A DNA stretch of 8,629 bases from Treponema sp. (GTDB lineage: Bacteria; Spirochaetota; Spirochaetia; Treponematales; Breznakiellaceae), in the NCBI GenBank assembly GCA_031284385.1, contig JAISZZ010000065.1, positions 1-8,629 of the forward strand, read 5' to 3'. The notes below the pieces were generated by a model. That model was not told the DNA's origin. It did not search any database and saw nothing but the letters and a program-made list of their open reading frames with translations. Below, in pieces: positions 3,180 to 8,534 of this stretch. How positions within the stretch are numbered: the stretch's first letter is position 1; each line of letters starts with the position of its first letter. The position numbers and the translations under genes are program-made.

Positions 3180-3209
3180 GTTGTTCAAGAACTTCAGTTT
3201 TTGAACAAC
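3180..3209. repeat. 13-bp hairpin, TTCA loop (family copy 2)
   Basis: GTTGTTCAAGAAC (3180-3192), loop TTCA, GTTTTTGAACAAC (3197-3209), with one G-T mismatch that would be a wobble pair in RNA. Same loop and core as the hairpin at 2586-2617. Confidence 0.75.
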
Positions 3210-3486: not shown

Positions 3487-3894
3487 ATGACTAAGCTGTC
3501 TACTTTCACGCTTCAAACACGCTCCCGTAACGAATGGATCAACATCACGGCTCAGGCGCAAAAAGCCGTAGCTTCTTCCGGTGTAAACGAAGGAATCTGC
3601 GTTGTTTTTACGCCACATACGACGGCGGCCATCACTATCAATGAAAACGCTGATCCGGATGTGCCGCGGGATATGCTTACCGCGCTCAACGCCGTTTCGC
3701 CTGACCGCGCGGATTTCCGCCATGCGGAAGGGAACTCCGCCGCCCATGCGAAAACCAGCCTTGTAGGGCCGTCAATCACGATAATCGTCTCAGGGGGCTG
3801 CCTGTTGCTCGGCACATGGCAGGGTATCTGGTTTACAGAATTTGACGGTCCCCGTGAACGTTCCGTCCATGTAAGGGTATTAGGCGGCGGTTAG
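3487..3894 (+). CDS. yjbQ: YjbQ/UPF0047 family protein, 135 aa
   Basis: A small cytoplasmic protein of the UPF0047 family, often named secondary thiamine-phosphate synthase because some members show weak activity of that kind; the physiological role is not settled. Visible family signatures are PHTTAAITINE (residues 43-53), HAEGNSAAHAKTSLVGPS (79-96, the conserved histidines and the NSxAHxK motif) and GTWQGIWFTEFDGPR (109-123). Starting at the ATG at 3487 gives the normal family length of about 135 residues. The same frame is open further upstream to 3403, but those 28 residues are Cys-rich and fit nothing in the family. No strong Shine-Dalgarno sequence precedes 3487. The gene stands alone and converges with the rpe-tmk run. 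The family assignment is firm. Confidence 0.93.
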   Translation: MTKLSTFTLQTRSRNEWINITAQAQKAVASSGVNEGICVVFTPHTTAAITINENADPDVPRDMLTALNAVSPDRADFRHAEGNSAAHAKTSLVGPSITIIVSGGCLLLGTWQGIWFTEFDGPRERSVHVRVLGGG

Positions 3895-3967: not shown

Positions 3968-3979
3968 CCCCCCCCCCCC
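3968..3979. repeat. Run of 12 C
   Basis: A homopolymer between the convergent yjbQ and the 229-residue gene. It is not in a promoter position for either neighbour. It is the second long C run in the window; the other is in the lipoprotein gene at 7562-7574. Confidence 0.9.
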
Positions 3980-4135: not shown

Positions 4136-4825
4136 CTAATAGGTGTTTTCGTCCATGGCTTCGAATTGGGCGCGTACTTTTTGGAGCAGCTCAAGTTCAC
4201 GGTTTAGTGTTTTTTCGTAATCGAGCGCGCCGTTTTCCATGCGGGTGGCCTCGTCTTCCCAGAATTGGATGCGCGGCAAGTTTATAAAACGAAAACGCTT
4301 ATCCAACGCTTTTTCCGCCCATTCTTTAGCGCCGTTCCAGTAGTAAAGTGCGGTACGGTAACAGGTTTCGGCAGTGTTAAGGCTGTCAAGATTTTGAGGC
4401 TTCCAAGGCGCATTGTAAAAGTATGCGTTACGTTTATTCCATTTGTTACCCAAAAATATGTATTGTTCGATAAGTTTAAGGTTTATATGCATCATAAAAA
4501 GGTAACGATACTTTTCCCACTGAGTTGTATTTTCTATCAGCGCCTCGGCGTACATCGGATTAGAAAAATCAGCGGCCAGCGACTTTTCCAGCCAATAAAT
4601 ATTCTCCATCGTGTCATCTGGATATTGAATATGGTGTAGATGGTAGAGCCGGTAAAACTGTTCTTTGTAGCGTACGATATACCCGTCAAGCGGCGCGGAA
4701 TTAGTAAGCAAAAGCGTGAGGGCGCAACAGGCTATAAGCGCGTTTTTGAGATATCTGCCGGCATTTTCGCATTTTATTGGTATGCACACCCTTTCATTAT
4801 CGGCATTAAACAAATATTTTGCCAA
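4136..4825 (-). CDS. Conserved spirochaete-type protein with N-terminal membrane segment, 229 aa or shorter
   Basis: I recognise no catalytic domain. A hydrophobic segment (LIACCALTLLLTNSAPLDGY, about residues 29-48) is followed by a hydrophilic, aromatic-rich, apparently helical body (YRLYHLHHIQYPDDTMENIYW, FLMMHINLKLI, YFYNAPW, CYRTALYYW), as in TPR-like or periplasmic anchored proteins. I recall similar proteins beside tmk in treponemes, but this is memory and not a search. The longest frame starts at TTG 4825, 52 nt inside tmk, without a Shine-Dalgarno sequence. A GTG at 4789 has AAAGG directly against it, too close for a normal site, so the true start is unclear; any of these still overlaps the tmk end, suggesting translational coupling. 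It is the last gene of the rpe-tmk run, and no clear terminator follows. Confidence 0.75.
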   Translation of the reverse strand: MAKYLFNADNERVCIPIKCENAGRYLKNALIACCALTLLLTNSAPLDGYIVRYKEQFYRLYHLHHIQYPDDTMENIYWLEKSLAADFSNPMYAEALIENTTQWEKYRYLFMMHINLKLIEQYIFLGNKWNKRNAYFYNAPWKPQNLDSLNTAETCYRTALYYWNGAKEWAEKALDKRFRFINLPRIQFWEDEATRMENGALDYEKTLNRELELLQKVRAQFEAMDENTY

Positions 4826-5428: not shown

Positions 5429-6085
5429 TCAACCTTGCCCGCGCAATTTTTTTACAAGTGCCGGTTTATCAACAGCGTTAAAAAATGTGGAACCGGCGAC
5501 AAGAACATCAGCGCCCGACGCAACGGCCTCTTTTGCCGTACTTTCGTTGATACCACCGTCAACCGACACTAAAAAATTAAGACCGCGTTCAGCACGTTGG
5601 CGTGTCAATTCCTCAACTTTTGTAAAACATTCTGTAATACAAGTTTGCCCACCATAGCCCGGGTTCACAGTCATAACGAGAACAAGGTCGAGAAATGGCA
5701 ACAAACAGGAAATGGCGGTGGCAGGTGTAGAGGGAACGATGCTGATACCAGCTTTTTTTCCGAGCTTGTGTATATTTTGAATGATAAGATGAGCGTGAAC
5801 AGCCGCCTCGATGTGGAACGTTATGCAATCCGCTCCAGCCTGAGCAAACGGCGCAAGCTGATTTTCGGGGCTGCACGTCATAAGATGTACATCAAACGGC
5901 AATGAAGCCCTGCCGCGCAAATCTTCCAGCATTTTTACGCCAAACGTGATGGGCGGCACAAAATTGCCGTCCATCACGTCTATATGTACCCAATCCGCTC
6001 CAGATGCGGATATGCTGTCAATCGCCTGTCCCATGTTAGAAAAATCCGCGCTAAGCAGGGAGGGCGCAATCAATAGTTGTTTCAT
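5429..6085 (-). CDS. rpe: Ribulose-phosphate 3-epimerase, 218 aa
   Basis: Interconverts ribulose 5-phosphate and xylulose 5-phosphate in the non-oxidative pentose phosphate pathway. It is a TIM-barrel enzyme with all metal and catalytic positions visible; numbering from the ATG at 6097, these are H38 and D40 in HIDVMDGNFVPP, H71 in FDVHLM, MTVNPGYGGQ (142-151) and D180 in VDGG. I prefer the ATG at 6085, which gives MKQLLIAPSLLSADF, the usual family N-terminus. The ATG at 6097 adds four residues and lies within the -10 box. Neither start has a Shine-Dalgarno sequence. It is the first gene of a run with tmk (1-nt gap) and the 229-residue protein. The position after GYGGQ is TC where many family members have KF, a minor change. 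Confidence 0.94.
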   Translation of the reverse strand: MKQLLIAPSLLSADFSNMGQAIDSISASGADWVHIDVMDGNFVPPITFGVKMLEDLRGRASLPFDVHLMTCSPENQLAPFAQAGADCITFHIEAAVHAHLIIQNIHKLGKKAGISIVPSTPATAISCLLPFLDLVLVMTVNPGYGGQTCITECFTKVEELTRQRAERGLNFLVSVDGGINESTAKEAVASGADVLVAGSTFFNAVDKPALVKKLRGQG

Positions 6086-6092
6086 GCCGTCT

Positions 6093-6120
6093 ATCATAAC
6101 TAAAAATTTAACTTTGTCAA
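6093..6120 (-). promoter_or_regulatory. Sigma-70-type promoter for rpe-tmk
   Basis: TTGACA (6120-6115, consensus -35) and TATGAT (6098-6093, one mismatch from the -10 consensus) are separated by 16 nt on the minus strand. A start point about 7 nt after the -10 box would fall on or next to the A of the ATG at 6085, giving a leaderless or nearly leaderless mRNA. Confidence 0.6.
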
Positions 6121-6138
6121 ACAGACGGCCTGATAATT

Positions 6139-7649
6139 TTAAGCGTCATCCACCGCCGGCTCTTCTATAACCGGGGCATCATCACCCGTATCTGCTGTAA
6201 CCTCCGGCTTATTGCCTAAATAAGTAATACGAATATAACCTGAGCCGCTATGCCCCTTTTCATTTTCGCCATCCGGGGACGGCATATCCTTATCACCGGC
6301 TATCATTGTAGTAGTGTATGTAACAGCCTCATTTTCACCAATTTTAATGCTCAACTCTGGGATAAAAGCCTTTCCGCTGAAATGCAGGGCTCGTGGAACT
6401 ACGCCCTTTTTGATGGTAACAGTATATTCAACTTCACTAACATCTTTACTGTCAGGGTCTGTAACCCATGCTATTCCGGTAAGCACTTCATCAGGTTCAC
6501 CGGTAGCGGTATTACTGGCGCTACTGGAGGCGGTACTTCCGGCAGCCGCAATAGCCACACAACCCGTATAACCGGAAATGAAGGAAGAGCCGCCGCCGCC
6601 GCCGCCGTTATAGATTCTCTGACCGCCGCCGCCGCCGCCCCAGTAACCGCCGCCGCCGCCGCCTGAACTTTCAGATTCACCATCATAATTCCCGCCAAAG
6701 CCAAAACTACCCGGATTACTGTTCATCTCTCCGGCGATTCCACCGGCTGTTTGTGTAGCGCCTTTACCCGGAGCGCTATCTGCGGTAGCGTTACTATCTC
6801 CACCTGTAAGCCCACCGCCAAAGCCGCCTGTCCAGAATCTGCTGGAAGGCTGGGTTTTTTCACCTGTTTTTGCCGTAGTGTTTGCGCCGCCGCCGCCCGC
6901 CGCGACAATTATGCGGTCATAAAGCGTGTCGCCGCCCCAACGCAGGTCTGTAGCGCCGCCGCCGCCGCCTTCTTTAAAGCCGGAGTTATTGGAACCGCCG
7001 CCGCCGTTACCACCCGTGCCGCCTTGTGCTATGCCGCCCACACTCAAAACAAATTTTGCCGCCGCCGTTACCTCTTCGTCCGTAATTTCCAGAATGCCCC
7101 TAGCGTAACCGCCCCTACCGGCGTACGTGTTTTCTTTCGCCGGCGGGTTCCAGCCCTGCGCCCCCCAAAGCTCAATCTGATAATATCCCGCTATTTTCGG
7201 CGTATAAGTTACGTCGCTATTCGTTTCAGGATAATCACTCGAATCCGGCAATCCTTTAACCCACTGGGCATAGACCATCAAAGAATTCTGACCAATATCG
7301 GTATTTATGCTGAAGGGAGAACCGTTGCCGTTCTCCTCCGTATTCCAGCCCACAAACGAGTGGTCAATCTTTTTGGGCGGCGTTGGAAGGCTCGTTACTA
7401 TATACTCTTTTATGCCATTCTTGCTGATCTCAGTTATCTTTTTCTTGTTTGGGTTAGCGAGCGTTGTCGCGCCGTTACTGTGGAACGCCACATACCCCTC
7501 TTCCAATTTGGCGGTTTCTTCCGCCGGCGAGCCCGGTTTTACGGCAGTCACGGCCGATTCGCCCCCCCCCCCCCACCATCGCATGAAAACGCGGATATTG
7601 CCATAAACAGGCACGCAAATACCGCCGCCGAATGATTACTCTTTTTCAT
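6139..7649 (-). CDS. Glycine-rich surface lipoprotein, interrupted at a 13-G run (probably phase-variable)
   Basis: The ATG at 7649 follows a GGGGGAG ribosome-binding site and opens a typical lipoprotein signal: MKKSN, hydrophobic AAVFACLFMAISAFS, then Cys23 and DGGG. Thirteen G (7574-7562) then put translation out of frame, so it stops at TGA 7550-7548 after 33 residues. The long body, open as one 491-codon frame from 7614, resumes at ESAVTAVKPG; 11 or 14 G would join both (about 503 aa with 14 G). Body, restored numbering: residues 53-131 are one Listeria-Bacteroides/InlB-type repeat (VAFHSNG, FVGWNT, VYAQW); from about 145 lies an ALK-type glycine-rich domain (YYQIELWGAQGW, GGNGGGG, GGGGATDLRWGGDTLYDR, VAAGGGG); the C-terminus is acidic (VIEEPAVDDA). 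GGC-codon runs encode poly-Gly. The inference is a surface adhesin-like lipoprotein, OFF here; a homopolymer error would look identical. Confidence 0.8.
6590..6662 (-). repeat. Cluster of GGC trinucleotide runs in the coding sequence
   Basis: Three runs of about five to six GCC/CCG units (plus strand) encode poly-Gly stretches; similar shorter runs lie at 6887-6900, 6955-6969 and 6996-7005. Because the unit is three bases, length changes would alter glycine number without shifting the frame. Confidence 0.7.
7562..7574. repeat. 13-G/C homopolymer, candidate phase-variation tract
   Basis: Thirteen C on the plus strand, read as G in the lipoprotein gene, lie between the codons for Asp24-Gly25 and the body. 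A tract length leaving remainder 2 on division by 3 is needed for a continuous product; 13 leaves remainder 1. Confidence 0.9.
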
Positions 7650-7704
7650 AAACTCCCCCTACTGCGATGAAAAAGTAAAAGCCTAAGCTGCTACTCCCCA
7701 CCAT
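7636..7704 (-). CDS. 22-codon ORF overlapping the lipoprotein start
   Basis: ATG at 7704 opens MVGSSSLGFYFFIAVGG and ends at TAA 7638-7636, 12 nt inside the lipoprotein gene and in another frame. It spans the ribosome-binding site, so it could be a short leader that influences initiation, but no ribosome-binding site of its own is clear, and chance occurrence is likely. Confidence 0.12.
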   Translation of the reverse strand: MVGSSSLGFYFFIAVGGVYEKE

Positions 7705-7755
7705 GTTACTTTGTAGCATACAACTTTCACCGGTATTAAACAAGTAGCGGAACGG

Positions 7756-7785
7756 CTAGGGAAGCACTGATTTATGCGAGTGCGC
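7756..7785 (+). repeat. CTAGGG...GAGTG repeat, copy 2 (plus)
   Basis: CTAGGGAAGCACTGATTTA followed by TGCGAGTGCGC matches the minus-strand copy at 2845-2873 at 26 of 30 aligned positions. A small GCGC/GCGC dyad (7783-7795) follows. It lies 23 nt after the end of the 241-codon ORF and upstream of the lipoprotein gene. Confidence 0.6.
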
Positions 7786-7808
7786 TAATTGCGCCGGCTG
7801 CGTCATTG

Positions 7809-8534
7809 TTACTCCGACGACGGGCGGCTGATGTTTACCACAACTCCAAACTCATAATTGGCGATATTATAGATATTATCAACAAAATAAACAAAATTAC
7901 CCGATAAAAGGTAAGGGGAACTAAAATAAACGGTGGCGGAACCCGTAACCGCGTTCTCAGCCGATGCTGAACCGGTATCCTCTATGTACAACATACCGTT
8001 GCTAAGGGTACCCAGCGTAAAATGATAGGCGGATAAAGAACCCTCGTGAATAAGGCCGCCGTGCGTCACGACACTATTCGCTGTTTCCAGTCCGCTTCCT
8101 AAAATGACACCGGTACTTGACGAAGGGTCGACAGGCCAATTGGTGGAAATATAAGCGTCGGGCGAATTACCTGATATTAAAGTTCCTACAGATCCAGCGG
8201 AAACCAGATCCACCATGCTGTCAACGGTATTTATCGTTGTGTTGTTGTTGTATTTGTTGAAAAATTTGCCTGCGGCTCCCCGCAAGCTGTTCACTCTAGC
8301 GAGATCTGAACTCTCTACCGGCAGCGTAACAGAAGCTACAGTGTCTGATTGCATCATAGCCATCATGGCGCCGACAGTGAGTGTAATACTATTCCCGGCA
8401 TACGCTGATGTACCTCCTCCCGCATATAGCAATGCTCCCATGTGACCGCTGACGGCGGCGGTAGTGTCGCCAAATGTGCCTTTAGTAATGAGAAACCAAT
8501 AGCTTGGAGAAAAATATAAATCCTTGCCGTCCAA
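7809..8534 (-). CDS. Unrecognised Ser/Thr/Gly-rich protein, 241 aa (possibly truncated)
   Basis: No known family is recognised. The product is rich in Ser, Thr, Gly, Ala and Val with alternating beta-type segments (SITLTVGAMM, SATVYFSSPYLLSG, FVYFVDNIYNIANYEFGV), as in secreted, cell-surface or tail-like beta-rich proteins, and has almost no Cys. The only plausible start is TTG at 8534, with GGGAG 5 nt ahead. The frame stays open upstream to TAA near 8605 (reading DLYKVLVSLCQYAVTGAV), but without ATG or GTG, and no signal peptide is seen, so the N-terminus may be lost or frameshifted. It lies upstream of the lipoprotein gene on the same strand with about 160 nt between them. A remnant of a larger surface or phage protein is a fair alternative. 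Confidence 0.5.
   Translation of the reverse strand: MDGKDLYFSPSYWFLITKGTFGDTTAAVSGHMGALLYAGGGTSAYAGNSITLTVGAMMAMMQSDTVASVTLPVESSDLARVNSLRGAAGKFFNKYNNNTTINTVDSMVDLVSAGSVGTLISGNSPDAYISTNWPVDPSSSTGVILGSGLETANSVVTHGGLIHEGSLSAYHFTLGTLSNGMLYIEDTGSASAENAVTGSATVYFSSPYLLSGNFVYFVDNIYNIANYEFGVVVNISRPSSE

Follow-up and report, generated by a model that had tools for sequence, protein, structure and literature searches.

Poly-G phase variation is known mainly from pathogens, in which it is often explained as a means of immune escape. Theiss and Wise reportedly described, in 1997, a surface lipoprotein of a mycoplasma that is phase variable by frameshift; that case differs from the one considered here both in the phylum and in the gene concerned. 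In Campylobacter, the PhasomeIt survey of the poly-G phasome (PMC6321876) gives tract lengths peaking at 9-10 G, with 77% of the tracts located within ORFs. In Treponema pallidum, a study of poly-G tracts at the tpr genes and Tp0126 (PMC7864442) places the tprL tract in the promoter and states that 8 versus 10 G alters promoter activity.

How does the present locus compare with these systems? It lies in a stretch of 8,629 nucleotides, hereafter the window, from contig JAISZZ010000065.1 of a Treponema sp. As in the T. pallidum study (PMC7864442), the organism is a spirochaete and a poly-G tract is associated with a gene for a surface protein (a predicted one in the window); however, the window tract lies within the coding sequence, 3′ of the lipobox, and is 13 nucleotides long. 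The Campylobacter phasome (PMC6321876) resembles what we found in the relatives of the window organism in that there are many G tracts per genome, that their lengths are peaked, that intragenic tracts mostly have G on the coding strand and that slippage would switch translation on and off. It differs in that the tracts in the sampled genomes of the genus of a related genome, G153, peak at 13-15 G, in that only 14 of 102 tracts are intragenic and in that the target genes are others. The mechanism itself is of a known kind; the differences lie in the length class of the tracts, in their mostly intergenic position, in the protein family concerned and probably in the host. No report of the glycine-rich surface family as phase variable was found in the literature listings searched, and neither poly-G nor homopolymer nor phase vari- occurs in the main text of a paper on termite spirochaetes (PMC13067680).

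The features of the window on which the argument depends are as follows.

7653..7660, minus strand: Shine-Dalgarno-like sequence AGGGGGAG, 3 nt 5′ of the ATG, read directly
7649-7647, minus strand: start codon ATG, read directly
7584..7649, minus strand: putative signal peptide MKKSNHSAAVFACLFMAISAFS, from the translation, matching the lipobox regular expression
7581..7583, minus strand: codon of the lipobox Cys (AFSC), separated from the tract by an Asp and a Gly codon
7562..7574, minus strand: 13-G tract, dividing the signal-peptide frame from the body frame
6139..7560, minus strand: body, 473 residues up to the stop, in which a List_Bact repeat precedes an ALK/LTK glycine-rich domain
3968..3979, minus strand: second G tract, of 12 G, between the 3′ ends of a UPF0047 gene (ending at 3894, plus strand) and the ORF 4136-4825 (minus strand)

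The initial annotation had described a ribosome-binding site, a start at 7649 and a signal peptide with a lipobox-like Cys, followed by 13 G and by a long open body in a different frame. The first three are all present in the minus-strand sequence, the 13 G (7574-7562) and the body open to the stop at 6139 were confirmed, and the statement that 11 or 14 G would give a single protein is correct by frame arithmetic. As assembled, the N-terminal frame, which reads MKKSNHSAAVFACLFMAISAFSC, Asp and Gly and then runs into the 13 G, terminates after 33 codons according to its translation. The body frame (stop at 6139) is, by ORF calls, already open 5′ of the tract, with its earliest possible start at 7614, and its 473 codons contain no further frameshift or stop. 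As at a contingency locus, a long homopolymer in the coding sequence thus puts the start and the body in different frames, and the elements expected of a lipoprotein, namely an N-terminal positive charge, a hydrophobic stretch and a lipobox Cys, are all found in MKKSNHSAAVFACLFMAISAFSC (by translation and regular expression). A tract located within the promoter, as in the T. pallidum type, was not found at this locus; a role of the 13-G tract as a promoter switch is rejected, because its first base is already 75 nt into the coding sequence. A promoter scan of positions 5900-8000 gave 3 candidates, versus a mean of 2.8 in shuffles, which is no excess. G8 is matched 11 times in the window when overlaps are counted, whereas 200 shuffles averaged 0.19 matches and not one of them reached 11; shuffling is, however, the wrong yardstick for this organism, because related genomes carry 21 to 298 runs of at least 9 G each. 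The window tract is notable for its position, directly 3′ of the lipobox, and for the kind of gene in which it lies, rather than for the run itself.

The body has a clear domain content. Pfam places the ALK/LTK glycine-rich domain (PF12810) at about body residues 124-448 (E 3.5e-35, 122.6 bits versus a cut-off of 24.5) and the InlB-type repeat List_Bact (PF09479) at about residues 24-99 (E 6.2e-7), and the only addition from an NCBIfam scan of the window was TIGR02543, also in the body. A profile of the family searched against the PDB matches ALK chains (best E 7e-5). An AlphaFold model of the body, built from an alignment of 13 sequences, has a mean pLDDT of 65, with the first ~113 residues poor, and the top 21 Foldseek matches of this model are all ALK/LTK (best E 2.3e-6, target TM-score at most 0.40); because the TM-scores are low and the mean pLDDT is 65, the detail of the fold is not established. 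The window body is like ALK/LTK (PF12810; PDB 7nwz, 7ls0 and others) in its Pfam, profile and fold matches, and differs in that the window protein is a putative bacterial lipoprotein without the kinase part.

Do the signal peptide and the body belong together? The initial annotation had named, as evidence that would speak against its proposal, relatives in which the two are never joined. In 12 of 17 relatives (P0002-P0009, P0016, P0032, P0098 and P0105, the last of which shares only the repeat part with the window body), we found by eye a hydrophobic start and a Cys joined to the body; in P0005, the order is Cys, Gly-Ser linker, repeat and glycine-rich domain. Two of the 17 are fragments without an N-terminus (P0010 and P0021), and the three without a lipobox (P0038, P0043 and P0044) are more distant, at 30-33% identity. 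Of four tract-free glycine-rich-domain genes inspected in G153, three also start with a signal peptide and a lipobox (L148, L164 and L268); neither was present in the stretch read of the fourth, L242. As judged by these sequence comparisons, the predicted signal peptide and the body are parts of one protein. Among the relatives compared, no orthologue of the window gene bearing the same tract was found.

The ribulose-phosphate epimerase encoded in the window is 74% identical to that of G153, the best among 241 genomes from the order, 226 of which gave a match. G153 and G205 both retain the gene order rpe, tmk and an ORF resembling 4136-4825, and G227 retains rpe and tmk; the window thymidylate kinase is 85% identical to a dTMP kinase [Treponema sp.], with further matches named Spirochaetaceae bacterium. 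We took the G153 genus (11 genomes) as the nearest relatives of the window organism. By their sample labels, the organisms of this genus are probably termite-gut spirochaetes.

The remainder of the window contains several other features. A D12-class adenine methyltransferase (PF02086) is encoded at 312-1451 on the plus strand, with a GC content of about 25-32%, below that of most of the window, and this stretch was possibly acquired. A near-perfect 22-nt inverted repeat without a spacer, 95% complementary, lies at 2803-2846. Two copies of a motif of the form CTTCAGTTT..TGAACA are located inside palindromic intergenic stretches, at 2599-2613 and 3192-3207; 683 kb of G153 contain 6 copies of the motif and 190 kb of G205 contain 1, and no copy falls inside a called gene. 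Of the 113 tracts in the four sampled genomes, only 1 has the motif no more than 150 nt away. Upstream of the lipoprotein gene, a 241-residue ORF (7809-8534, minus strand) gave no Pfam or NCBIfam match. The window had no match in a plasmid collection, and its Rfam and tRNA scans returned nothing.

Long G tracts are general among the nearest relatives. The 11 genomes of the G153 genus together contain 1308 runs of at least 9 G (21 to 298 per genome), of which 1167 are of at least 13 G (71 to 95% per genome), and the run lengths are bimodal, with few at 9-12 and a peak at 13-15. In the sampled genomes, leaving out of the length counts all runs of more than 30 nt and those less than 150 nt from contig ends, the G153 contigs (683 kb) yielded 22 runs of G7, 5 of G8, none of G9-G11, 1 of G12, 10 of G13, 36 of G14 and 4 of G15; the sampled contigs of G246, G205 and G227, when pooled, yielded 3 of G9, none of G10-G12 and 30 of G13-G16. 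Throughout the order, 77 of the 241 genomes have no run of at least 11 G, and G153 tops all 241 with 279. Shorter tracts occur elsewhere in the order: G231 has 307 runs of at least 9 G, 13 of them of at least 13, the corresponding numbers are 90 and 4 in G102 and 59 and 6 in G189, and G029 likewise has a shorter typical tract length than the G153 genus. Each genome thus seems to have its own typical tract length, to which sequencing differences between studies may contribute, and the window tracts, of 12 and 13 G, fit such a length class. Loss of MutS as the source of tract richness is unsupported: MutS domain I is present in 41 of 45 genomes, including both the tract-rich G153 and the genomes with shorter tracts (G231, G102, G189 and G029), and those without it are G243, G227, G248 and G012, the assemblies of which may be incomplete.

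Most of these tracts lie between genes. By a test based on codon scores on both sides, 14 of 102 tracts were intragenic (13 in G153 and 1 in G205), versus 303 of 552 random positions (Fisher 1.8e-15); the 102 include the two tracts of the window and leave out runs of more than 30 nt or less than 60 nt from contig ends, and the 552 include a few positions near contig ends, which were scored as not intragenic. The window's own 13-G tract fails this test because the coding part upstream of it is short. Simple ORF calls placed 16 of 84 tracts within genes, and inspection placed there 12 of 50 in G153 and 1 of 6 in G205, and none of the 24 in G246 or of the 2 in G227; both of these counts leave out runs less than 150 nt from contig ends, and the inspection also leaves out two poorly resolved runs in L264. 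Because only 14 of 102 are intragenic, most tracts in the G153 genus switch no reading frame, and because long G tracts are general in the genus, mostly intergenic and abundant also in G246, which has no glycine-rich-domain gene, a G13 run alone says little for a switch.

The intergenic tracts tend to lie near the 3′ ends of genes. Of 69, a set that still includes L150:7834 and L176:9685, which are intragenic by codon score, 33 have such an end no more than 200 nt away, against 18.6 expected. These 33 show no strand preference, with 17 sense and 16 antisense. We considered that they might be orientation-specific 3′ elements, such as terminators or RNA G-quadruplexes, and rejected this because the G is found equally on either strand; for the same reason, a role of the intergenic tracts at the transcript level is unsupported. 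A fixed insertion element with shared flanks was likewise rejected, as no common flank motif or target duplication was seen by eye; the one exception is the second base after the tract, which is A or T in 46 of 62. Tracts that touch core genes include L233:5177, located 5′ of a gatB-like start, and L193:11898, in the last codons of a RluA-like gene (both names by eye). Facing tracts between convergent ORFs were observed at L178:2107-2138 in G246 (C13/G13, 6 nt apart) and at L168:6583-6676 in G153 (C14/G13, 67 nt apart), and the 12-G tract of the window, between convergent gene ends, resembles the intergenic G13-15 tracts of the G153 genus.

What kinds of genes hold the intragenic tracts? When the codon-score set and the inspection are joined, the sampled genomes contain 16 such tracts, 15 in G153 and 1 in G205. 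Seven of the 16 are in PF21722 or PF12810 genes (L240, L251 with two, L276, L168 and L150 with two); a lipobox start was seen in five of these seven tract-bearing glycine-rich-domain genes, the N-termini of the L150 pair being outside the stretch seen. The other intragenic tracts are in the following genes.

L232: putative lipoprotein with an FGE-sulfatase domain
L264: short putative lipoprotein
L142, L270 (two) and L272: four members of a repeat-rich family, with Big_3 in L142 (domain scan of L142 only)
L167 and L176:6482: radical SAM proteins
L176:9685: acyltransferase-like end (by eye)

Two of these tracts are placed much as in the window: L264:419 in G153 reads ..VMSCDN and then the tract, two codons after the lipobox Cys, exactly as in the window, and L232:5331 in G205 reads ..LGSCENPA and then the tract, four codons after it. 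By regular expression, 6 of 12 testable tract genes have a lipobox N-terminus, versus 51 of 791 tract-free genes (Fisher 6.5e-5); L272, which begins at a contig end, was excluded from this test, and in a seventh tract gene, L251:6848, the lipobox was seen by eye and missed by the regular expression. In the G153 contigs examined, of which C29, C91 and C161 were chosen for homologues and the remainder by number, 7 of 12 glycine-rich-domain matches are in tract genes, versus 8 of 438 other called genes (6.7e-9), and without two homologue-picked contigs the proportion is 5 of 9 (1.0e-6); one of the five tract-free matches is cut by a contig end. Position lists point to at least four more tracts near the start of glycine-rich-domain frames (C245, C107, C145 and C159), where the domain was taken as the C-terminal end of the frame and tracts preceded by C were left out.

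The evidence on gene class comes almost wholly from G153. Matches to PF21722 or PF12810 number 30 in G153 (one just under the cut-off), 21 in G227, 11 in G245, 4 in G205, 2 in G222 and 1 in G248. G246 has no such match, 177 runs of at least 13 G and no intragenic tract among the 24 sampled; because it is tract-rich without the family, the tracts are not kept for the glycine-rich family. Not every intragenic tract has G on the coding strand: 3 of 14 have C. Nor does a tract have to code for glycine, since two glycine-rich-domain genes of G153, L150:105 and L150:7834, have C tracts, proline-coding in the sense direction, in an N-terminal stretch.

Tract lengths and reading frames bear on whether the tracts vary. 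In three sets of paralogues, with 31-80% flank identity, the positions of the tracts match exactly or almost so, and the lengths are 14 and 14, 14 and 12, and, in the set L142, L270, L270 and L272, 14, 15, 13 and 15 (12 to 15 over the G153 sites). The occurrence of different lengths at the same site in paralogues argues for maintenance of the tracts and for real change in their length. Of the 14 intragenic tracts in the codon-score set, which is without the window, 1 is in frame and 13 are out of frame, 8 of them in one wrong phase and 5 in the other; given a neutral expectation of one third, the probability of at most 1 of 14 in frame is 0.027. Scored by the longest open frame, with the window included, 13 of 14 are out, and codon scores on that same set give 12 of 14. 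Such a surplus of out-of-frame tracts could mean either that most switches are OFF or that some tracts were miscounted.

On these comparisons, the window locus is probably a slippage-switched, that is, phase-variable, surface lipoprotein gene caught in its OFF state. The proposal made to this effect in the initial annotation is thus supported as the best reading, by comparison rather than by watching the switching. A different account is that the gene is always on, that the tract length was miscounted in assembly through homopolymer stutter in PCR or short reads, and that the G run is a mere glycine linker. The proportion of intragenic tracts in relatives that are out of frame (13 of 14) exceeds the expectation for neutral switches, the contig ends of G153 are rich in G/C runs (40 contigs have 19 runs of at least 9 in the 150 nt next to their ends) and a metagenome consensus hides mixed lengths, all of which would fit a miscount. 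However, a single uniform miscount does not suffice when both wrong phases are present, same-site paralogues differ in length (13, 14 and 15), and a tract prone to stutter would probably slip in vivo too; we therefore regard this account as unlikely.

That the tract is simply one of the many neutral G tracts of the lineage, landed in a gene that is now a pseudogene, appears decidedly improbable. The tens to hundreds of tracts per related genome, most of them intergenic, and their even division between the strands near 3′ ends (17 sense, 16 antisense) would fit such an origin, yet the body is intact over 473 codons, the site is retained in diverged paralogues, and the tracts, which avoid genes in general (14 of 102 versus 303 of 552), concentrate in the lipoprotein and glycine-rich-domain genes of G153. 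Long homopolymers are slippery for polymerases and ribosomes, and slippage of the RNA polymerase or a frameshift of the ribosome at the tract might yield some full-length protein at any DNA length, which would accord with nearly all sampled tract genes being out of frame. Recoding alone, however, does not account for the differing lengths of the paralogues, although it may coexist with switching at the DNA level, and as the whole explanation it is highly improbable.

The reading of the window locus as a phase-variable lipoprotein gene would work as follows. The locus would be a simple-sequence contingency locus, and its product an outer-surface lipoprotein, with a signal peptide and a lipobox Cys for lipidation, followed in order by the tract, which would encode a glycine linker, by an InlB-type repeat and by a glycine-rich domain like that of ALK/LTK. 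At replication, slipped-strand mispairing would add or remove Gs, and each change in tract length would join or separate the signal-peptide and body frames, only some lengths joining them. Within one clone, some cells would thus display the protein and others would not. The assembled copy would represent the OFF state, and cells in the ON state would lipidate and export the protein with its extended glycine-rich domain, which may plausibly serve as an adhesin or surface decoration, or in cell-surface identity.

A wider conjecture may be offered tentatively. The spirochaetes of this genus are uncultured and probably live in insect guts; each genome has tens to hundreds of G tracts, of about 14 G and almost never of 9 to 12, and it is possible, if rather doubtful, that some species, G153 above all, have turned a subset of them into separate switches that control a large ALK-like family of glycine-rich lipoproteins (30 domain matches in G153 and 21 in G227), mostly OFF, with each cell displaying a random few. 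This reading is put no higher because G246 lacks the family and nearly all the evidence from intragenic tracts comes from G153. The poly-G device appears at scale in spirochaetes that are probably insect symbionts, and the gap in lengths, together with the typical lengths specific to each genome, makes the control of tract length a testable question. If the conjecture is true, the surface identity of a cell would be combinatorial, and these cells may be symbionts of a host that lacks adaptive immunity.
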